From Candidatus Mailhella excrementigallinarum (GTDB lineage: Bacteria; Desulfobacterota; Desulfovibrionia; Desulfovibrionales; Desulfovibrionaceae), in NCBI GenBank assembly GCA_944324075.1, contig CALUUZ010000019.1:1-53197 (forward strand): DNA of 53,197 nt, given 5' to 3'. Both the position numbers and the translations under genes were made by a program. This document shows, piece after piece, positions 2,418 to 47,003 of this stretch. The first letter of the stretch is position 1. Each line of letters starts with the position of its first letter. Under the pieces are notes generated by a model. It saw only the letters and a program-made list of their open reading frames with translations. It did not search any database and was not told the DNA's origin.

Positions 2418-2784
2418 GGCGAGATTCCGCCGCGACTCCGGAGCGGATGCAGTTTCAGTGCAACTATTGTTTCGTTTTTCCGTGCCGCCGTTCTCTGAAA
2501 AGGAAAATGGCGGCACGGATATGGCGTGCCGCGCCAGAGCGGCTGAAAATATCTGCGGCTCAGCATCATGCTCTGCCCCGCAGTTTTCATGCCCCGGCCG
2601 GACCCTGTGCCGCAAGTGAATTGCAGCGACAGCGGCCAGGGACGGCGCGGATGTTCTCGTTACGCTCAACTCATGGAACAGGTTCAAGGGCTTCTCACCG
2701 CAGGCCCGGTGGAACCGGATAGGCAGATATGGCTCAAGATGCCTTCATATGCCCTTTGCGGAAAGATGTTTCAACGAAAGAACT
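2418..2784. other. intergenic region with degenerate repeat
   Basis: No gene is supported between leuB and the glycosyltransferase. Positions 2537-2640 carry a diverged copy of the dispersed repeat family described elsewhere in this annotation: a GAAAATATCTGC motif at 2543-2554 and the CCGCAAGTGAATTGC module near 2610-2624, in the same orientation as the 22682-22852 copy. Local palindromes such as GGCGGCAC/GTGCCGC are also present. Confidence 0.45.
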
Positions 2785-5226: not shown

Positions 5227-5526
5227 AAATTCCTTTGCGGTTTGAGACCTCCCCCTTCAGGGGGAAAAGAGGTGTTGACAAGACGGAGAAGCCGGTGAAA
5301 TCCTTTTCCGTAACCTTTCCCTTCAGGGAGGGCAATCCGCACGCCCCCTCTCCGTCGGCTGCTTCAGTCAGTCGGCGGATGGGACGTTTGTGGATTGAAA
5401 CATGCCTTTCCTCCGTGAAAACATTTTTTCAGTCGGCACTGTCACAGAGCCTTTCAATTTTACCATTCTCCGTCAAATGTTCCGCGCCGGCGGCCAGGGA
5501 TTCCGCAACGCCTCTCATAATCCCAT

Positions 5527-5595
5527 GCCGCCGCAATTCATCTGCTGCGTCAAGCTCCGGCTTCGGGCGTAATACTTGCAGATCAGCCCATGAGG
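5527..5595. repeat. dispersed repeat variant, copy 1
   Basis: This segment aligns nearly base for base with 25694-25760. Both run from GCCGCA through GTCAAGCTCCGGCTTCGGGC to a CATGAGG end. The internal CTCCGG and CCGCAATTC pieces are shared with the AGAGC-ended repeat family, so it is probably a diverged or partial relative. Confidence 0.55.
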
Positions 5596-5746
5596 AGCTG
5601 GTGGAGAGACAGCTCTGCCAGATGAACAGACACGCCGCATTCAGACTCCACTCTTCCGGGAAGAATACCGCTCGTGCGCCTCCCCGACCGACCCTGCCGT
5701 ATATGCTGTCCCTCTCTCACGGCATGGTTCTGACGAACCTTTTATA

Positions 5747-14998: not shown

Positions 14999-16327
14999 AT
15001 GAGAAAAAAATCGACCCTTCGTTTTTCACACATTTTTCTGCTGTTCTGCCTCGCCCTTGCGGGGGCGGGGGCTTACACGCTCCTGCATGACATGGCCGGC
15101 CCGGTTATTGCACTCGTTCCTGAAAGCCCGGAACGCCTCGGCCCGGCCCAGCCTCTTGAGCTGAGCCTCTCCGACGATTCCGGACTGCGCTCCGTTCAGG
15201 TCACAGTGCGCCGGGGAGGCAGGGCCATGACCGTGCTGCGCCGTGACTTTCCCAAGGATGTCAGGGAGGCGAAACTGAACTTCGACCTGAGCGAGACCCG
15301 TCTGCCCGACGGCGCCTTCGAACTGGAGATCAAGGCCCGCGACGCTGCATTCGCCGGATTCGGAGCGGGCAACTCCTCCACCCTCACCCTTCCCGTGCGG
15401 ATGGATACCCAGCCTCCGCGCATCGCCGTGCGTACGGTTCCGCCCGCCATACGCCGGGGAGGCAGCGCTCTTATTGTCTATACCGTAAACAAGGATGTGC
15501 GGGAAACCGGCGTCCGCTCCGAGGATCTTTTCTTCCCGGCCTACAAACAGGCCGACGGCTCCTGGGCATGCCTGTTCGCCTTCCCCTACCAGAAAACCAC
15601 GGCCACCTACTTGCCGGAAATCATGGCAAAAGACGACGCGGGCAATATTACGTCCAGCCGTCTTCTGATTAATGCCATCGGACGTGACTTCTCTTCGGAT
15701 ACACTTCCCATCAGCGAAAAGTTCCTGAGCATGAAATCCGCCGAACTCGCCCGGCTCTGCCCTGAAAAGCCGGATGCTCCCACGTTGGAGCAGTATATCT
15801 GCGTCAACAATGGGGAACGCCTGCGCAATGACGCGAAGCTGCTTGAGCTGGGCCAGACCAGCAACCCGTCTTTTCTGTGGAAGGGCAAATTCCAGCATCT
15901 GCCCCGTTCAGCCGTCAAGGCCAACTTCGGGGACGCCCGCACCTATACCTCCGGAGGCAAGAAAATAGATCATCAGGTTCATACCGGTCTGGATCTCGCT
16001 TCCGTGGCCCGCGCCGAAGTGCCCGCCGCCAATGCCGGACGGGTGATTTTTACGGAGGAACTCGGCATTTACGGCAATATTGCAGTGATCGATCACGGGC
16101 TGGGACTCATGACTCTGTACTCCCATCTCAGTGAATTCCGGGTCAAGCCGGGGGACGAGGTAAAGGCGGGGCAGACCGTGGGGACTACCGGCATCACCGG
16201 CCTTGCGGCGGGCGACCATGTCCATTTCGGCGTGCTGGTTTCCGGAGTGCCTGTTCAGCCTCTGGAATGGCTGGATGCCAAATGGGTGCAGAACAACATC
16301 TCCAGTCGCTTGAAAAGTGGACGCTGA
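14999..16327 (+). CDS. membrane-anchored M23 family metallopeptidase
   Basis: Putative peptidoglycan-processing endopeptidase or a regulator of one, anchored in the inner membrane by a single N-terminal helix (about residues 9-27) and acting in the periplasm. The middle 250 residues form Ig-like beta domains. The C-terminal domain is an M23/LytM fold with a complete zinc set: His328 and Asp332 of HTGLD, and the HVHFG motif (His407, His409). An intact site suggests an active enzyme rather than an EnvC/NlpD-like activator. There is no strong ribosome binding site; a small GGCGAA/TTCGCC inverted repeat lies just before the start. Confidence 0.87.
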   Translation: MRKKSTLRFSHIFLLFCLALAGAGAYTLLHDMAGPVIALVPESPERLGPAQPLELSLSDDSGLRSVQVTVRRGGRAMTVLRRDFPKDVREAKLNFDLSETRLPDGAFELEIKARDAAFAGFGAGNSSTLTLPVRMDTQPPRIAVRTVPPAIRRGGSALIVYTVNKDVRETGVRSEDLFFPAYKQADGSWACLFAFPYQKTTATYLPEIMAKDDAGNITSSRLLINAIGRDFSSDTLPISEKFLSMKSAELARLCPEKPDAPTLEQYICVNNGERLRNDAKLLELGQTSNPSFLWKGKFQHLPRSAVKANFGDARTYTSGGKKIDHQVHTGLDLASVARAEVPAANAGRVIFTEELGIYGNIAVIDHGLGLMTLYSHLSEFRVKPGDEVKAGQTVGTTGITGLAAGDHVHFGVLVSGVPVQPLEWLDAKWVQNNISSRLKSGR

Positions 16328-16358
16328 ACCGCTTTTTACGCATCATCCCGGTGAGTTC

Positions 16359-16463
16359 GGAGCATTTTGCCCCGACTCCGCTCGACTCCGGGGTGCAAGG
16401 CAAGACTCCGGTGAGCCGAAACGTGCGGGTCAGAACCCAGGGTTCCGGCTGACAGATGCATTC
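16359..16463. repeat. AGAGC-family repeat, diverged copy
   Basis: Begins GGAGCATTTT and continues with CTCCGGTGAGCCGAAAC, TGCGGGTCAGAACCCAGG and GGCTGACAGATGC, which align with the GGAGGCGTGAAACCTGCGGG and CTGGCCGGCAGATAT parts of the intact copy at 43562-43741. The central palindromic module is missing. Confidence 0.5.
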
Positions 16464-16472
16464 AGCAGCAAC

Positions 16473-16594
16473 ATACTTTCGTACCATATCATAAATGGTT
16501 GAATACTTTCGTATTCAATGCCGGCCCGGTTCGCCGAAAAGGCGGTTTCGGCCCGTTCGCGACGGCTCGTATTCCGCAATTCGGAATACGAGCC
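16473..16594. repeat. nested palindromes and direct repeat in intergenic DNA
   Basis: ATACTTTCGTA occurs at 16473-16483 and 16503-16513. The second sits inside the palindrome GAATAC-TTTC-GTATTC (16501-16516). Fifty bases later a 13-bp perfect stem (16564-16576 with 16582-16594, loop CAATT) contains the same GTATTC/GAATAC core. No T-tract follows, so a terminator is unlikely. Confidence 0.55.
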
Positions 16595-22028: not shown

Positions 22029-22060
22029 CGGACACTTCCCCATCTTTGTGTGGTGTACCG

Positions 22061-22216
22061 AGTTTGAAAATATCTGCCGGCCGGACCTGTATTCCGGCGC
22101 GCAGGTTTCGCCCCTGAAGCCGGAACCTGCGCCGCAAGTGAGCCGGCTGTTCCAGTTTCGCGGCGAAGTCCTGCTCCGCCCGGGTCCGGGGGCATTCTCA
22201 AAGCGAAACATGTTCT
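22061..22216. repeat. AGAGC-family repeat, diverged full-length copy
   Basis: Runs from GTTTGAAAATATCTGCCGGCC through TGAAGCCGGAACCTGCGCCG and CCGCAAGTGA to CAAAGCGAAACATGTTCT. Module order and orientation match the copy at 22682-22852 only 466 bp away, but both ends and the central palindrome have drifted. Confidence 0.6.
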
Positions 22217-22681: not shown

Positions 22682-22852
22682 GGAGCGTTTTGCTCTCGAA
22701 AACATCTGCCGGCCAGCCCCCATGTTCCGGCACGCAGGCTTCACGCCTGAAGCCGGAGCTTTACGCCGCAAGTGAATTGCGGCTGTCCGGCGTTGCGGCT
22801 TCAGTCTCGCCCTGCCCGACTGAAGCAGAGCATTTCATGAGCGAAATGCTCT
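22682..22852. repeat. AGAGC-family repeat, intact copy
   Basis: A 171-bp element with ends GGAGCGTTTT and GAAATGCTCT. Inside it are an ATCTGCCGGCCAGCCCC segment, the palindrome GGCTTCACGCCTGAAGCC, CCGCAAGTGAATTGCGG, the inverted pair GGCTTCAGTC/GACTGAAGC, and the terminal palindrome AGAGCATTTC-atgagc-GAAATGCTCT. It is the reverse orientation of 43562-43741. Its right end meets the stop codon of the paaK-like gene. Confidence 0.8.
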
Positions 22853-24170
22853 AATCCAGCCTCAAGTCCGTCACACGCTTGGATTTGCCGAAGGAACGCG
22901 GCAGCTTGCCGGGATCGACGATTTCCACAGCGGCGCGGGCCAGAAGAGCCTTGTGCAGTTCCTCCGCAAAACGTCCGGCCAGAGCATCGTCTCCATCGGC
23001 GGAAACATTGGCCCCGCGTTCCAGCTTGAGCAGCATGAAATCTCTGGCGCCCTCGCGGGTCAGCTCAATATGATATTCTCCCCCCAGCTCGGGATAATGC
23101 TGGATCACATCGCAAATCTGACCGGGATAGATATTGACGCCCCGGAAGATAATCATGTCATCGGAACGGCCCAGCAGACGGTCATGGCGCGGCATGGTAC
23201 AGCCGCAGGGGCATTCGCCGGGAATGAAGCGGGAAAGGTCGCGTGTCCGGTAGCGGATAAGCGGAGCAGCCTCCTTGCGCAGGCTGGTGACGACCATCTC
23301 CCCGATTTCGCCGGGGCGGACGGGTTCCAGCGTCTCGGGATCGATAATTTCCATATAGAACAGATCGGCCCAGTAGTGCAGCCCCTCATGAGCCTCGCAG
23401 TCAATGGCCGTGCCGGGGCCGTACATCTCGGTCATGCCGCCGATGTCAAAACAGTGTTCCAGCCCCAGTTTTTCGGTGATTGCGGCGCGCATCTTGGCGC
23501 TGCTGGCTTCCGCCCCGAAAATGGCCCGCTTCAGCTTCAGATTCTTCAGCAGCCCGTGCCGCTCCACCTCTTCCCCCATGAGCAGGGCCATGGACGCCGT
23601 ACATCCGATGCAGGTGGTGCCGAAATCCTGAAGAAGCTGAAGATGGATATCCAGATTGCCCGGACCGACAGGAATGGTCAGCGCGCCGAATTTCTCGCAG
23701 CCGAGCTGGAAACCGGCCCCGGCTGTCCATAAACCGTACCCCACGGCCACCTGCATGCGATCTGCCGGGGTAAGCCCGGCCAGCTCATAGCAGCGGGCCA
23801 TCTGAAACGCGAATGTGTCTATGTCGTTACGGGTATAGGCCAATACCTTGCGCTTGCCGGTGGTGCCGGAAGAGGCGTGGACGCGGAGTACCTCGGTATC
23901 CGGCACGGAAAGCAGGGGCAGAGGATAGCCGGCGCGCAGATCCTCGGTCGTGGTAAAGGGGAGTTTTCTCACATCATCGAGCGTACGGATATCCCCGGGA
24001 TGCGCATCCCCGAGTTTGGCGCGATACTGGGGGCTGCCCGTCAGGGCATGAGCCAGCGTCCAGCGCACCCCCGCAAGCTGCCGCTCCTCCAGTTCACCAG
24101 GGGAATAGCAGGGAATGAATCGTTTGCCCGGAGCGACCGACAGGGCGGGAACATGGTACGGCGTAGACAT
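22851..24170 (-). CDS. phenylacetate-CoA ligase family protein
   Basis: Adenylate-forming acyl-CoA ligase of the PaaK type, activating phenylacetate or a similar aryl acid with ATP and CoA in the cytoplasm. The 439-residue protein has the AMP-binding loop HASSGTTGKRKV, the GGMTEMYGPG motif, a YRTRDLSRFIPGECPCG stretch, RSDDMIIFRGVNIYP, and the C-terminal lysine region SFGKSKRV. GGAG eight bases upstream supports the ATG at 24170. The TAG stop overlaps the end of a repeat element. Related ligases without a phenylacetate pathway are common in anaerobes, so the substrate is open. Confidence 0.88.
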   Translation of the reverse strand: MSTPYHVPALSVAPGKRFIPCYSPGELEERQLAGVRWTLAHALTGSPQYRAKLGDAHPGDIRTLDDVRKLPFTTTEDLRAGYPLPLLSVPDTEVLRVHASSGTTGKRKVLAYTRNDIDTFAFQMARCYELAGLTPADRMQVAVGYGLWTAGAGFQLGCEKFGALTIPVGPGNLDIHLQLLQDFGTTCIGCTASMALLMGEEVERHGLLKNLKLKRAIFGAEASSAKMRAAITEKLGLEHCFDIGGMTEMYGPGTAIDCEAHEGLHYWADLFYMEIIDPETLEPVRPGEIGEMVVTSLRKEAAPLIRYRTRDLSRFIPGECPCGCTMPRHDRLLGRSDDMIIFRGVNIYPGQICDVIQHYPELGGEYHIELTREGARDFMLLKLERGANVSADGDDALAGRFAEELHKALLARAAVEIVDPGKLPRSFGKSKRVTDLRLD

Positions 24171-24360: not shown

Positions 24361-25686
24361 ATGCGCATACTTATCATCGGTTCGGGAGGGCGCGAACACG
24401 CCCTTGCCTGGAAGCTGAAACAAAGCCCGGAGGCGGATGAAATCTTCGTCGCGCCCGGCAACGGCGGCACGGCGTCACTGGCGCGGAACCTGCCGATTTC
24501 CGAGGGAGATGTGCCCGCCCTGGTCGCCTTCGCCCGCGAACATCATGTGGATTTTGTGGTGCCCGGCCCCGAACTGCCCCTTACGCTCGGGGTAGTCGAC
24601 GCCATGACCGAAGCAGGCATTCCCTGTTTCGGGCCGGTCGCCGCATGCGCACGGCTTGAAGGCAGCAAGGCGTTCGCCAAGGAAATCATGCAGGCCGCCG
24701 GAGTTCCCACCGCCGCCTGCGGCGTTTTTTCCGACAGGAAGTCCGCCGGAGCCTTTGCCGCGAAGCACGGCGCGCCCCTGGTGATTAAGGCGGACGGACT
24801 CGCCGCAGGCAAGGGCGTGGTTATCGCCATGACTGAGCATGACATCGACGCGGCGCTGGATGACATGTTTTCCGGCCGCTTCGGTGCGGCCGGACAAACC
24901 GTGGTCATGGAAGAATTTCTGCGCGGGGAGGAAGTATCCCTGCTCTGCTTCTGTGACGGAGAAAGGGCGTTGCCTCTGCCGTCCGCCCAGGATCACAAGG
25001 CCGCATATGATGGAGACAGGGGGCCCAATACCGGAGGCATGGGCGCCTACAGCCCCGCCCCCGTACTGCCTGACGACGAACTTGAGCGCATGGCAGATCT
25101 GACGGTGCGCCCTGTTCTGCGGGAAATGGCCCGGCGCGGCACCCCCTTCAGGGGCATCCTTTATGCAGGGCTGATGATGACCGACGACGGTCCCAGGGTA
25201 CTGGAATACAATGTGCGTTTCGGCGATCCGGAATGTCAGCCCCTGCTCATGCGCCTTGATGAAGATCTGCTCGGCCTCCTGCGCTCCTGCGTTGAAGGCT
25301 CGCTTGCAGACCATAAGCTCAGGATCAGGCATGAGGCCGCTCTCGGCGTGGTTCTCGCCGCCGACGGCTACCCCGGTTCCTATCCGAAAGGCATGGAAGT
25401 CTCCGGCATCAGTGAAGCGGAAGCCCTTGATGCAGTCCGCGTATTCCAGGCCGGGACACGATACGATAACGGCAGAATCCTCGCCAATGGCGGACGTGTG
25501 CTGTGCGTAACCGCCATGGGCGAAACTCTCTCTGCCGCCCGGACGCGGGCCTATGAAGCCATGGAACGTATCTCCATGCCCGATTCCTTCTGCCGCCGCG
25601 ACATCGGCAGCAAGGGGCTGGAGCATCTTCAAAGCGAAACTGTTCCCGGAGCGGAGCGGCGCGTGACGCCGCCGCAACGCTCCTAG
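24361..25686 (+). CDS. purD: phosphoribosylamine-glycine ligase
   Basis: Joins glycine to phosphoribosylamine with ATP in the second step of purine synthesis. The 441 residues show the N-terminal [16 protein letters not shown] motif, the ATP-grasp region [14 protein letters not shown], and the [10 protein letters not shown] and RFGDPECQ signatures of PurD. GGGAG lies upstream of the ATG. The last 15 or so residues (EQSRRNA-like charged tail) are beyond the usual end. purE follows after 81 bp that carry a repeat fragment, so the two may be cotranscribed. Confidence 0.96.
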
Positions 25687-25693
25687 CCGGCAT

Positions 25694-25760
25694 CGCCGCA
25701 GTTCCCCCGCAACGTCAAGCTCCGGCTTCGGGCGCAAAATCTGCGGGGCAGAACATGAGG
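25694..25760. repeat. dispersed repeat variant, copy 2
   Basis: Aligns closely with 5527-5595 over its whole length, including GTCAAGCTCCGGCTTCGGGC and the terminal CATGAGG. It fills most of the 81-bp gap between purD and purE. Confidence 0.55.
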
Positions 25761-25767
25761 AAAAACT

Positions 25768-26268
25768 ATGACGCAAGTTGCCATTTTCATTGGTTCCGCC
25801 TCGGATGAGCCTGTGATCAGTCCGTGTGCGGAGGTTCTGAAGAAGCTGGGCATCAGCTTCCGTTTCACGGTATCTTCCGCGCACCGCACGCCGGAACGCA
25901 CAGAGGCGCTGGTGAGGGAACTCGAAGAGGACGGATGCCAGGTGTTCATCTGCGCGGCGGGCATGGCCGCACATCTGGCCGGGGCAGTGGCTGCCCGCAC
26001 CACAAGACCTGTCATCGGCATTCCCGTGGCCGGTTCGGCTCTGGGCGGCATGGACGCGCTGCTTTCCACCGTACAGATGCCTCCGGGCTTTCCCGTGGCC
26101 ACGGTGGCACTGGACAAGGCCGGAGCACGCAACGCGGCGTGGCTGGCGGCACAGATTCTTGCCCTGCATGACGAAAGCCTGGCCGGAGCATTGCGTGCGG
26201 AACGTGAGGCCTTCAAGGTTTCCGTGGAGCGAGCCGGGGCGGAACTGCAGGAGAAGTACGCGAACTGA
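25768..26268 (+). CDS. purE: N5-carboxyaminoimidazole ribonucleotide mutase
   Basis: Class I PurE, which moves the carboxyl group of N5-CAIR to form CAIR in purine synthesis. The 166-residue protein has the conserved GSASDEP start, the SSAHRTPER histidine motif, [12 protein letters not shown], and the [22 protein letters not shown] stretch typical of octameric PurE. It follows purD, giving a small purine pair. The ATG lies just after the repeat fragment, with a GAGGAAAAACT binding site. Confidence 0.95.
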
Positions 26269-31636: not shown

Positions 31637-32340
31637 GCCTCACCGGCACTTCTTCTTCCGACAAGCTGATATGCGCCATCTCCGGACATGGACAGGGAGA
31701 GCGTCTGATGCGCCGGGCCAGAGAGGCCGGGGCACGCGGCGGCACGCTGCTGCCCGGACGGGGCACGGCCGCCGGCGGTCTGCTGGGTCTGCTTTGCCTT
31801 GGCGATCAGGAAAAGGATATACTCATCATTCTTGGTTCGGCAGAACAAATCCGGGAGGTCGCCAGAGTCTGGCGCGCCACCCGTTCCGAATCCCGTACGG
31901 CCGTCGGAATATCGTTCAGCCTCGATCTTGAAGCCGTGCTGCGTCCACAGCGCGGCTTCGCCGTCGACGCCCGTCCCCTCACCCCCGCCGCGGCTTCCAT
32001 GCCGGAGACTCCCATGAGTGAACAGCAAGCAACGTCGTATGACCTCATCTGCCTTATCGTCAACGCCGGTTTCGCCGATGACGCCATGGCCGCGGCGCGC
32101 AAGGCCGGAGCCCCCGGCGGCACGATACTCAAAGCACGCGGAACCGCCAGCGGGGAAGACGCGCAGTTCTTCGGACTGACCCTGTTCCCGGAAAAGGAGG
32201 TTCTGCTCATGCTGGTGCCCGGAGACAAGGCGGAAGCAGTGCGTCAGGCGGTGAAAGAGGCCGATTGCCTGAAGAATCCGGGGATGGGAATCGCCTTCAG
32301 CGCATCTGTGGACGATTTCTTTTCTCTTGGCAAAATCTGA
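31633..32340 (+). CDS. tandem PII-like regulatory protein
   Basis: Protein of 235 residues with two PII-like ferredoxin folds. Domain 1 (about 11-105) has LICAISGHGQGERLMRRA followed by GARGGTLLPGRGTA. Domain 2 (about 135-235) has LICLIVNAGFADDAMAAA followed by GAPGGTILKARGTA. The GGTxLxxRGT loop is the position of the ligand-binding T/B-loop region in PII-like proteins. A flexible linker rich in Pro and Ala joins them. Translational coupling to the DUF1538 membrane protein suggests it senses a small molecule and gates or regulates that protein, as GlnK does for AmtB. Ligand and transported substrate are unknown. Confidence 0.8.
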   Translation: MSLTGTSSSDKLICAISGHGQGERLMRRAREAGARGGTLLPGRGTAAGGLLGLLCLGDQEKDILIILGSAEQIREVARVWRATRSESRTAVGISFSLDLEAVLRPQRGFAVDARPLTPAAASMPETPMSEQQATSYDLICLIVNAGFADDAMAAARKAGAPGGTILKARGTASGEDAQFFGLTLFPEKEVLLMLVPGDKAEAVRQAVKEADCLKNPGMGIAFSASVDDFFSLGKI

Positions 32341-32463
32341 ACCGTCTTTTCCCCTGTCTTCGTCTGCCCCATCCGCCGGAGTTCAATTCCGCAGGCGAAT
32401 TGCGCCTGTTCCGGAATATGGCGGGGCCTCTCGGTTTCCCTCGCCGCAAATGCGGAGAGCTTC

Positions 32464-32589
32464 AGAGTATTTCGCCATTGAAATGCTCCACGGAGTCGGG
32501 CAGGGCGGGACTCCGGCGGAGGCGTGAAACCGCCTGCGTGCCGGAACATGGGGTCTGGCCGGCAGATATTTTCAGGAGCAAAATGCTCT
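32464..32589. repeat. AGAGC-family repeat, copy lacking the central module
   Basis: Ends AGAGTATTTC and AAAATGCTCT, with the terminal palindrome AGAGTATTTCgccattGAAATGCTC, then GGCGGAGGCGTGAAACC, TGCCGGAACATGGGG and TGGCCGGCAGATATTTTC. The CCGCAATTC palindrome and its flank are absent, so the element is 126 bp. Related palindromic sequence also precedes it from about 32380. Confidence 0.75.
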
Positions 32590-41086: not shown

Positions 41087-41100
41087 TTCCGGACGCGGGA

Positions 41101-41281
41101 ATTCCCTGAAATGTTCGTGGGGATGCGACGATGCCGGCCTCACATTCGTCGTTAGGGAGCCGGTCGCCAAAGTGGTGTTCATGCCCGGTGCGCCGGGAAG
41201 TCTGAAGCTTCGGCCAGGCCCCCACCCTGGGACACCAGGTCTCGTGCTCGCGCATGCCTACGGCATTTCGGGGATTTTTTT
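41101..41281 (+). ncRNA. ssrS: 6S RNA
   Basis: Regulatory RNA that binds housekeeping RNA polymerase in stationary phase. The sequence starts ATTCCCTGAAATGTTCGTGG and ends CTACGGCATTTCGGGGATTTTTT. The ends form the 6S closing stem: CCCTGAAATG pairs with CATTTCGGGG, and CGTGGGGATGCG pairs with CGCATGCCTACG. The middle folds as a long arm with an unpaired central region. Position directly after zapA is the classic 6S location. The U-tract (41275-41281) is its terminator. Confidence 0.8.
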
Positions 41282-43086: not shown

Positions 43087-43530
43087 ATGACATCTTCTCC
43101 CCGTATCGCTGTTTCCCCGGACTTCCGGCCCGATTTCTCCCATCCCCACGCTCCGCGATGCGCTGGACGCGGGCTGGTGGCGGCCGTCGCCCAGGACGCC
43201 GCCAGCGGTGAAATTCTCATGCTGGGATGGATGGATGAAGAGGCATGGAATGCCACGCTCTCCACCGGAGAAGCCCATTATTTCAGCCGCAGCCGCGCAA
43301 AACTCTGGCACAAGGGAGAAAGCTCCGGCAACGTGCAGAAAGTCCGGGCCATCCGCCTTGACTGCGATGCGGACGCCGTGGTGCTGGAAGTGGAACAGAT
43401 CGGCGGCGCGGCCTGCCATGAGGGGTATCGTTCCTGCTTTTTCCGCCGGGCGGAACTCGCGCCTTCCGGAAAGACGGACATCTGTTGTCCCCGCGTCTTT
43501 GATCCCTCCAAGGTTTACAACAGGGCATAA
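43087..43530 (+). CDS. hisI: phosphoribosyl-AMP cyclohydrolase
   Basis: Opens the purine ring of phosphoribosyl-AMP, third step of histidine synthesis. The 147-residue protein has the family motifs LMLGWMDEEAWNAT, TGEAHYFSRSRAKLWHKGESSGN, the zinc-binding DCDADAV region, and CHEGYRSCFFR. The N-terminal 30 residues are longer than in many homologues. CAGGA lies just before the ATG. HisG is encoded 225 bp downstream across a repeat element. Confidence 0.94.
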   Translation: MTSSPRIAVSPDFRPDFSHPHAPRCAGRGLVAAVAQDAASGEILMLGWMDEEAWNATLSTGEAHYFSRSRAKLWHKGESSGNVQKVRAIRLDCDADAVVLEVEQIGGAACHEGYRSCFFRRAELAPSGKTDICCPRVFDPSKVYNRA

Positions 43531-43561: not shown

Positions 43562-43741
43562 AGAGCATTTCGCCATTGAAATGCTCTCCTTCAGTCGAGC
43601 GGGGGCAGACTGAAGCCGCGACGCCCCCTTCTCCGGTGTCGCCGCAATTCACTTGCGGTGCAGAGCGACGGCGGAGGCGTGAAACCTGCGGGCCGGAACA
43701 CAGGGGCTGGCCGGCAGATATTTTCGAAAACAAAACGCTCT
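43562..43741. repeat. AGAGC-family repeat, intact reference copy
   Basis: 180-bp element with terminal inverted repeats AGAGCATTTC (43562) and AAAACGCTCT (ending 43741). In order it contains AGAGCATTTC-gccatt-GAAATGCTCT, the inverted pair CTTCAGTC/GACTGAAG, GACGCCCCC, CCGCAATTCACTTGCGG, GGCGGAGGCGTGAAACC, TGCGGGCCGGAACACAGG, and GGCTGGCCGGCAGATATTTTC. It fills the hisI-hisG gap and ends at the hisG ribosome binding site. Confidence 0.85.
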
Positions 43742-43755
43742 AAAGGAGTTGTCCC

Positions 43756-44679
43756 ATGTCCGCCCCGCGTCAGATTAAACTCGGCATCCCCAAAGGTTCC
43801 CTTGAAGAAGCCACCATTTCTCTGTTTGAAAGGGCCGGGTGGAAAATCCGCAAGCATGTGCGCAACTATTTCCCGGATATCAACGACCCCGACATCACCG
43901 CCAGGCTCTGCCGCGTGCAGGAAATTCCCGGCTATATCCGGGACGGAGTGCTTGACGTGGCGCTGACCGGCAAGGACTGGCTGCTGGAAACCGGCGTGGA
44001 TTTTGCCGATGACCGGGAAGGCGACTCGGGGGGGGAATCTCCCGTCCGCATGATATCCGATCTTGTCTATTCCAAGGTCTCCAACCGCCCCGCGCGCTGG
44101 GTGCTGGCCGTGGCCGGAGATTCCCCCTACCGCAAGCCCGAAGACCTTGCGGGCAGGCGCATCTCCACGGAACTCAAGGGCGTGACCACCCGTTATTTTG
44201 AAGAACTGGGCATCCCCGTCCAGATCAGCTACTCGTGGGGCGCGACGGAAGCCAAGGTGGTGGAAGGACTGGCCGACGCCATTGTGGAAGTGACGGAAAC
44301 GGAAACCACCATTCGCGCCCATGGTCTGCGTGTCATTGATGAGGTTCTGGTAACCAACACCGTACTCATCGCCGGCCGCGATGCGATGCGTGATCCGTTC
44401 AGGCGGGCGAAGATTGAGCAGATAGATCTGCTGCTTCAGGGTGCGCTGCGCGCGGAAAGCCTGGTCTGCCTCAAAATGAACGCCCCCGCCGCCCGTCTGG
44501 ATGAAATCCTGAACCTGCTGCCCGCGCTCAACTCTCCTACCGTGGCCAGCCTGCGCGACCCCGCATGGCTGTCGCTGGAAACCGTGGTGGACAGCGGCCT
44601 GGTGCGCGATCTCATTCCCCGCCTGCGCAAGATCGGTGCGGAAGGCATACTTGAATACAGCCTGAACAAGGTTATTTAG
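43756..44679 (+). CDS. hisG: ATP phosphoribosyltransferase, long form
   Basis: First and committed enzyme of histidine synthesis, joining ATP and PRPP. The 307-residue protein is the long HisG form with a C-terminal regulatory ACT-like domain (about 230-307), so it should not need HisZ. Catalytic-domain features are the KLGIPKGSLEEAT start, RISTELKGVTTRYFEELG, and SGATEAKVVEGLADAIVEVTET as SYSWGATEAKVVEGL. AAAGGAGTTG, lying directly at the end of the upstream repeat, is the ribosome site. Its TAG stop overlaps the next repeat by two bases. Confidence 0.94.
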   Translation: MSAPRQIKLGIPKGSLEEATISLFERAGWKIRKHVRNYFPDINDPDITARLCRVQEIPGYIRDGVLDVALTGKDWLLETGVDFADDREGDSGGESPVRMISDLVYSKVSNRPARWVLAVAGDSPYRKPEDLAGRRISTELKGVTTRYFEELGIPVQISYSWGATEAKVVEGLADAIVEVTETETTIRAHGLRVIDEVLVTNTVLIAGRDAMRDPFRRAKIEQIDLLLQGALRAESLVCLKMNAPAARLDEILNLLPALNSPTVASLRDPAWLSLETVVDSGLVRDLIPRLRKIGAEGILEYSLNKVI

Positions 44680-44792
44680 AGCATTTCGCTCATGAAATGC
44701 TCGCCGCAGCATCGGAGCAGCCGCTATTCACTTGCGGCGTTAAGCTCCGATGGAGGCGTGAAACCTGCGGGCCAGAACACAGGCCCTGCTCC
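44678..44792. repeat. AGAGC-family repeat, right end truncated
   Basis: Starts AGAGCATTTC-gctcat-GAAATGCTC at the hisG stop, continues through CCGCTATTCACTTGCGG and GGAGGCGTGAAACCTGCGGG to CCAGAACACAGG, then loses similarity before the expected GGCAGATATTTTC end. Same orientation as 43562-43741. Confidence 0.75.
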
Positions 44793-44873
44793 ATACTCTT
44801 GCGCCTTCCTGCGGAGCGTTCCCGCGAGTCGAAAAAGACGCCTCGACGGGGGAACGCTCAATCGCCGCATGCG

Positions 44874-46742: not shown

Positions 46743-46903
46743 GCCATGCCTCCTTTCAGTGCCTTCCTGCCCTTGTTCTCCCGTGCGGGAACCATGTACC
46801 CGACCGTACACGGCTCCCGCCTCTCCCGAATCGGACGCCGTTCCCCGCGCCGCGCCGGCCGCGCAGCCGGGACGAAACTCCCTGGAAGCGCTTCCGTCTC
46901 CGA

Positions 46904-47003
46904 AGCGTTCCAGAGGCCGCAATTCACTTGCGGCTGCTCCGGTGTCGCGGCTTCAGTCTCGCTTCGCTTGACTCCGGAAGCATTTTCAAAACGAAAACGC
47001 TCT
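46904..47003. repeat. AGAGC-family repeat, half copy
   Basis: Right half only: CCGCAATTCACTTGCGG, GTGTCGCGGCTTCAGTC, GACTCCGGAAGC, then ATTTTCAAAACGAAAACGCTCT. Same orientation as 22682-22852. The AGAGC end joins the stop codon of the dehydrogenase gene on the minus strand. Confidence 0.7.

Follow-up and report, generated by a model that had tools for sequence, protein, structure and literature searches.

A large family of hairpin-rich intergenic repeats in Candidatus Mailhella excrementigallinarum, probably MITEs mobilized by an IS630-type transposase

The window analyzed here, a 53,197-nucleotide stretch of DNA taken as a whole, belongs to a genome of 3,709,134 bp in 51 contigs that is densely populated by a composite palindromic repeat. 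Our data indicate that this family most probably consists of MITEs moved by an IS630 (Tc1/mariner-like) transposase. Each element would be a chain of small hairpins that encodes no gene and is enclosed by a pair of terminal inverted repeats (TIRs), and an IS630-family transposase acting in trans would recognize TIRs of the form TAGAGC[A/G]TTTY.., cut the element out and paste it into sites that are TA or TA-like. The spread may have been driven by an IS630 of the TAGAGCAT type, whose gene would have been lost later from the window's genome. Selection would then have left copies where they do no harm: in intergenic gaps, above all those separating convergent genes, and at the precise site of stop codons, where insertion of a GAGC end would turn the TA of a stop into TAG.

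A DNA search of this genome with the copy at 43562-43741 gave 438 first-look candidates, and each of the 40 that were scored had an E value below 1e-38, at 79-100% identity. A covariance model was built from 29 aligned copies, 26 from outside the window and 3 from within it; this alignment (A1) held 27 of the first 30 loci (L001 being the window copy) and two more window copies, and left out L014, L021 and L029 as short, indel-rich or inverted in the core. The model detected at least 150 copies in the 3.7-Mb genome, the best 150 matches all having E ≤ 3.3e-24. In 453 kb, made up of the window and 400 kb from contig C1, we counted 76 distinct copies, which bears out the density of about one per 6 kb given in a preliminary description of the window and extrapolates to approximately 600-620 copies genome-wide. 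The model search that scored the window copies, which also covered 19 of 80 HisG loci, recovered all eight copies named in that description, with E values from 1.1e-53 to 6.8e-5 (Table 1); the scores of 43562-43741, 22682-22852 and 32464-32589 are partly circular, these copies being rows of the model, while those of the other five are independent of it. A repeat finder confirmed that the copies have modules in common in both orientations. At 32315-32589, two copies on opposite strands have hairpin A in common, perhaps through insertion or joining at the palindrome.

The 59 full copies that we aligned were 144-227 bp long, mostly 165-183 bp, and contained no gene of their own. They were bounded by TIRs reading RGAGCATTTY at one end and RGAGCGTTTT at the other, with terminal bases 2-9 at least 85% conserved, so that the AGAGCRTTTY ends described for complete copies were correctly read. 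From the opening 26-bp palindrome the modules follow in the order hairpins B, C, D and F and then a closing segment like ATATTTTCGAGAGCAAAACGCTCT. Short forms are devoid of hairpins C and D, as in the window copy at 32464-32589 (the preliminary description had noted one copy without a central module), and in long forms an additional hairpin stretch brings the length to 223-227 bp. Single hairpins were inverted in some copies (A in L008, D in L029), and such block inversions suggest cruciform formation or template switching in place of point changes. The loop of hairpin D read ATTCACT in 40 cases versus AGTGAAT in 4, although some of these four may belong to copies that were read on their opposite strand.

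Table 1. Repeat copies in the window and modules of the copy at 43562-43741 (E values from the covariance model)
Feature	Position	Strand	Description
Full copy	43562..43741	+	180 bp, between hisI and hisG; E 1.1e-53
Hairpin A, 5' terminal palindrome	43562..43587	+	RGAGCATTTC N6 GAAATGCTCY; AGAGCATTTCGCCATTGAAATGCTCT in this copy; outer part is the 5' terminal repeat
Hairpin B	43590..43614	+	TTCAGTC..GACTGAA; GGAGTC..GACTCC in other copies
Hairpin C	43619..43641	+	CGACGCC..GGTGTCG; missing from short forms
Hairpin D	43642..43658	+	CCGCA ATTCACT TGCGG; module recognizable in several other genera
Hairpin F	43686..43717	+	CTGCGGGCC..GGCCGGCAG
3' terminal repeat	43718..43741	+	reverse complement AGAGCGTTTTG..
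Full copy	22682..22852	-	171 bp; E 1.4e-45; 5' end supplies the TAG stop codon of called gene 22851-24170 (minus strand)
Copy without central modules	32464..32589	+	E 4.9e-26
Diverged copy	32315..32489	-	E 6.2e-8; new, beyond the preliminary list; overlaps hairpin A of the 32464 copy
Truncated or diverged copy	44678..44807	+	E 2.4e-15; 5' end is the TAG stop of hisG
Truncated copy	46885..47003	-	E 5.1e-12
Diverged copy	2536..2695	-	E 6.1e-16
Diverged copy	22050..22214	-	E 2.6e-12
Diverged copy	5446..5632	+	E 1.9e-6; new, beyond the preliminary list
Diverged copy	25620..25771	+	E 6.6e-6; new, beyond the preliminary list
Diverged copy	16311..16479	+	E 6.8e-5

Evidence for an IS630 partner comes from complete insertion sequences with the same ends in related genera. 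Using the Pfam profile PF13358 (DDE_3) for IS630 transposases, we obtained matches in 33 of 149 genomes of the family Desulfovibrionaceae, from which 36 loci (L191-L226), a subset of the matches, were fetched; the survey of ends covered 26 of them and left out L194, L196, L197, L198, L218, L220 and L223-L226. Four complete elements of 988-1000 bp (L203, L207, L208 and L209) lie in four different genera, none of them the window's, and all eight of their ends begin with TAGAGCAT, seven with TAGAGCATTT. The L207 and L203 proteins were assigned to IS630 by NCBIfam and to DDE_3 by Pfam. L192 and L201 matched strongly at one end (1 mismatch in 13 bases) and L202, L204 and L215 weakly (3-4 mismatches), these end matches being counted without a chance control. 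Different TIRs were found in seven loci (L199, L206, L211, L213, L214, L216 and L219, L206 being partly alike with TCAGAGCATAAA), and in eight of the 26 (L195, L200, L205, L210, L212, L217, L221 and L222) no TIR pair was resolved. Agreement between the ends of the insertion sequences and those of the window-genome copies extends over approximately 10 bases and is poor further in. Copies in G165, which have the long-form inner core in common with window-genome copies, bear TTAACTTT-type ends like those of the insertion sequences, and this also speaks for the partnership. In genome G148, the L192 end equals that of a 123-bp TA-flanked element (L198:190-312), a candidate member of the family, over 17 of 17 bases. 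Two IS630 elements of genome G050 have somewhat different ends, TTAAAGCA.. in L191 and TAAAGCAG../TAGAGCAG.. in L193.

Three arrangements at these loci are recorded here. L191 (positions 1-1096; contig C35 of G050), at the contig start, places the IS630 with TTAAAGCA ends against a MITE copy that is missing its last bases, and the IS630 was probably inserted into the MITE. At L198:6-312 (contig C27 of G148), a fragment of an IS630 transposase gene directly adjoins the 123-bp element, perhaps as a result of MITE insertion into that gene. Close to a run of A, IS630 genes also appeared divided between two frames (L203:1400-1420 and L193:1405-1420), an arrangement that would fit a frameshift-controlled transposase.

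The distribution of the transposase speaks partly against the IS630 reading. Among six genomes checked with PF13358, G050 and G148 had matches and G165 had none; the profile found nothing in the window's own genome (G000) or in eight listed same-genus genomes. The L207 transposase used as query likewise gave no match in the window's genome, and remnants of it were found in G116 and G064. A transposase gene with ends matching the repeat, which the preliminary description had proposed to look for, exists in four IS630 elements of other genera but was not found in the window's genome, an absence that we count against the IS630 reading and that would require the source to have been lost. In favor of the IS630 reading, matches to the covariance model co-occurred with PF13358 (10/19 genomes versus 23/130, p = 0.0017, with kinship ignored and the two 149-genome samples taken as the same draw from their coinciding genome handles). 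Counted against it are the nine of these 19 genomes that have no PF13358 match, and G060 and G049, carriers of two of the four matching insertion sequences, which gave no model match under strict filters.

Copies in relatives were patchy. The DNA search matched 3 of 41 genomes (the window's own, G006 and, weakly, G011) and did not detect the family in 16 of 18 same-genus genomes. The covariance model gave matches in 19 of the 149 Desulfovibrionaceae genomes, its own included, under strict filters with 18 candidates scored per genome, so that some single weak matches may be due to chance. G050, the only genome of its genus among those sampled, was matched by the model at least 150 times with E ≤ 0.001. 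In a search with one of its copies as query, 40 of 469 candidates were scored, giving 39 copies at 96-99% identity to the query and another five at 85-94%. Such identities point to recent amplification in G050. Elements there read TA[GAGC..GCTC]TA, with TA on the left in 9 of 10 and on the right in 10 of 10 copies (two share one flank), and a further set had the left TA in 14 of 16 copies. Contigs C23, C26, C27, C34, C39, C13 and C16 of G050 start approximately 160-205 bp before a MITE copy, C23 and C26 with the same flank, perhaps as parts of a larger repeat containing a MITE.

The copy at 43562-43741 lies between genes that we identified by Pfam as hisI (43177-43530, PRA-CH) and hisG (43756-44679, HisG), where the gap of 225 bp comprises the 180-bp element and 45 bp. 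We compared this junction in 11 loci, six of which were read at the sequence level; hisI adjoins hisG in nine and was not found beside it in L045 and L046. In the six read at that level (L037-L042, from Mailhella, Desulfovibrio or Desulfovibrionaceae), the gap is at most approximately 45 bp and holds no element. In the more distant L047, L048 and L049, match coordinates place it at roughly 0, 70 and 125 bp. Since the gap itself is longer in L048 and L049, absence of the element from a junction does not amount to an exact empty site, and the empty sites anticipated in relatives were obtained at the level of the gene junction but not of the exact base.

Flanks in the window's genome differ from those in G050. 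Full copies were flanked by YR dinucleotides (52/59 on the left, 54/59 on the right), with TA in 19 of 59 on each side. Left and right dinucleotides agreed in 18 copies versus 13.6 in shuffles (p = 0.12), and among target duplications of 2-12 bp, searched over 25 offset pairs in the 59 copies, none rose more than 3 sd above shuffles. Left-right complementarity reached p = 0.016 at one of 18 positions (-7) but did not extend to the dinucleotide, and we take this as chance. Because terminal bases 2-9 are so well conserved, the YR flanks are too changed for simple decay; an IS630 mechanism does not account for them, and we count them, with sides no more alike than in shuffles, against that reading. 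No pair among the 59 copies reached 95% identity, the nearest-neighbor median being 87.6% and the maximum 94.9%. Together with the failure to find an IS630 transposase, this leaves the earlier proposal of an active or recently active element unsupported for this genome, where the family looks old and stranded; that proposal fits G050 better.

In another reading, the persisting unit would be the inner hairpin core, itself under selection and repeatedly re-capped by the ends of whichever IS630 is current; in the window's genome it would also have shifted from TA to YR targets. Since the cores common to the window's genome and G165 carry different terminal repeats, the core may be re-capped. We regard this as a minority possibility. 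If true, the element would be a long-lived passenger changing drivers, its core selected for transposition efficiency or host tolerance.

The position of the copies relative to genes agrees with the selection that we propose for IS630-mobilized MITEs. Genes were called by a simple purpose-written script, and a copy was taken as intergenic when at most half of it lay inside a called ORF. By this measure 75 of the 76 copies were intergenic, compared to a mean of 15.0 and a maximum of 24 in 500 random placements; the earlier statement that all copies are intergenic therefore holds for the sample except for one copy, and the ends at 44678 and 22852 overlap stop codons. Of 75 copies, 21 lay in convergent gaps, an arrangement seen in 42 of 341 gene pairs (p = 0.001). 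Depletion from divergent gaps was not significant (6/75 copies versus 41/341 gene pairs, p = 0.22).

Stop codons were a preferred position. We analyzed 98 intact ends, 97 of which had a neighboring gene on that side, and 15 of the 98 provide the called gene next to them with its TAG stop codon, where approximately 0.6 would be expected within 3 bp. The overlap was two bases in all 15 cases, T-A plus the G of the element making TAG, and no other intact end lay within 10 bp of a stop. Because TAG results when an element inserts at the TA of a stop codon, such insertions can be silent for the protein. These overlaps rest on our own gene calls: hisG, whose stop is made by the 44678 copy, is full length against relatives (aligned to residue 307 of 307) and was the only one of the 15 so compared, and an in-frame TAG truncating the other 14 would look the same. 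In G050, 18 of 18 copies were intergenic and 3 of 35 ends lay no more than 3 bp from a stop, the two-base overlap recurring at two of them.

The same positions raise the question of whether the family is a structured RNA or transcription-end element that host selection maintains because it acts at mRNA 3' ends. The excess of copies in convergent gaps and at stop codons and the stable hairpins (z -2.9 and -2.3) speak for such a role, as does the persistence of the hairpin pattern across genera while the sequence of hairpin B changes. In co-directional gaps, however, copies showed no orientation bias (26 on the same strand versus 22 on the opposite strand, p = 0.67). Covariation was slight: 92.5% of alignment cells were paired versus 92.0% in shuffles (6 of 500 as high), and pairs changed on both sides numbered 4 versus 2.6 (104 of 500 as high). 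No copy in the window reached the Rfam gathering score, the best weak match, on the 43562-43741 copy, having E 0.04. With the family also undetected by DNA search in most same-genus genomes, we consider a host function of this kind improbable.

A similarly low probability attaches to repeats of the REP/BIME type, which would be mobilized by a single-strand (Y1/HUH) transposase, for instance a RAYT. Palindromic, intergenic units without a demonstrated target duplication in the window's genome, and the few hairpins inverted relative to the family, would suit such repeats, and nine PF01797 matches were found in that genome. The two Y1 proteins that we classified, out of nine loci, were nevertheless both IS200-type above cut-off, one of them scoring far under cut-off for the REP-associated family (31.5 vs 80). 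None of the nine loci was flanked by intact repeat copies; those nearby were partial, one (L144:1936-1984) separated from one side of the Y1 match by approximately 150 bp and the others at least 580 bp away. To our knowledge, neither long units with two ends and TIRs nor TA flanks as in G050 are REP anatomy. Of the initial label "MITE- or REP-like", the first part is retained, the elements being short, non-coding, numerous, intergenic and bounded by TIRs whose ends are shared with IS630-family elements in relatives, but a strict RAYT-driven REP family is not supported by the Y1 loci. Two adjacent IS200-type transposase genes lie at the start of contig C30 of the window's genome (positions 247-1503).

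Some IS5-type transposases also use TA-like sites, and IS5-type genes (PF13586) occur in G006, G165 and G050, with the TIR of L271 (TAGAGGCTGTTATGA) having its first five bases in common with the family ends. MITEs moved by an IS5-type transposase (DDE_Tnp_1 or DDE_Tnp_1_2) are nonetheless the least probable alternative and a very unlikely one: the TIR pairs found in five of nine IS5-type loci (TAGAGGCTG, CTAGGGTGTG, TCAGGACTC twice and CTARGGCGTG) never continue as TAGAGCAT, and the window's genome has no match to PF01609 and a single one to PF13586, under cut-off, in a 509-aa frame.

Among known systems, the nearest to this family of putative IS630-mobilized MITEs are RUP and BOX of Streptococcus pneumoniae. 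RUP is a 107-bp repeat reported in 108 copies, and its mobilization by IS630-Spn1 was proposed from similarity of TIRs and target (PMC2229807, PMC3049150). The present family resembles it as a small intergenic repeat with TIRs like those of an IS630-family element and, in G050, with terminal TA; its copies are, however, longer, modular and several times more numerous, and the proposed partner of RUP resides in the same species, whereas our searches of the window's genome found no IS630 transposase. BOX is reported to be over-represented between convergent genes and to supply stop codons to 36 coding sequences (PMC3049150). Composite hairpin modules with a variable middle, the convergent-gap excess and the supply of stop codons are common to both families; the partner proposed for BOX is ISSpn2, no tandem boxB-like arrays were noticed here, and the likeness is one of description. 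Correia/NEMIS elements of Neisseria are TIR-bounded, have 107- and 155-bp forms with terminal TA and duplicate their target (PMC2229807); forms differing by an internal module and, as far as G050 is concerned, TA at the ends recall the present repeats, which differ in being a chain of GC-rich hairpins and are again likened by description. The transposase of ISY100 (IS630/Tc1-mariner) cuts and pastes almost only into TA, which it duplicates (PMC2170065); this fits the G050 flanks, although ISY100 is autonomous and the common ground is the proposed mechanism alone.

In the accessible portion of the literature on MITEs of Desulfovibrio or Bilophila, a scope that most subscription journals fall outside, we found no report of this family. 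The finding adds a large and dense repeat family in a gut-type sulfate reducer, would tie that family to a named transposase family, and illustrates clearly how insertion at a stop codon can restore a stop. Hundreds of MITE copies that either outlive their transposase or use a non-TA target also make a testable case. Apart from the repeats, the window contains a 6S / SsrS RNA at 41100-41278 (Rfam RF00013, 82.7 bits).
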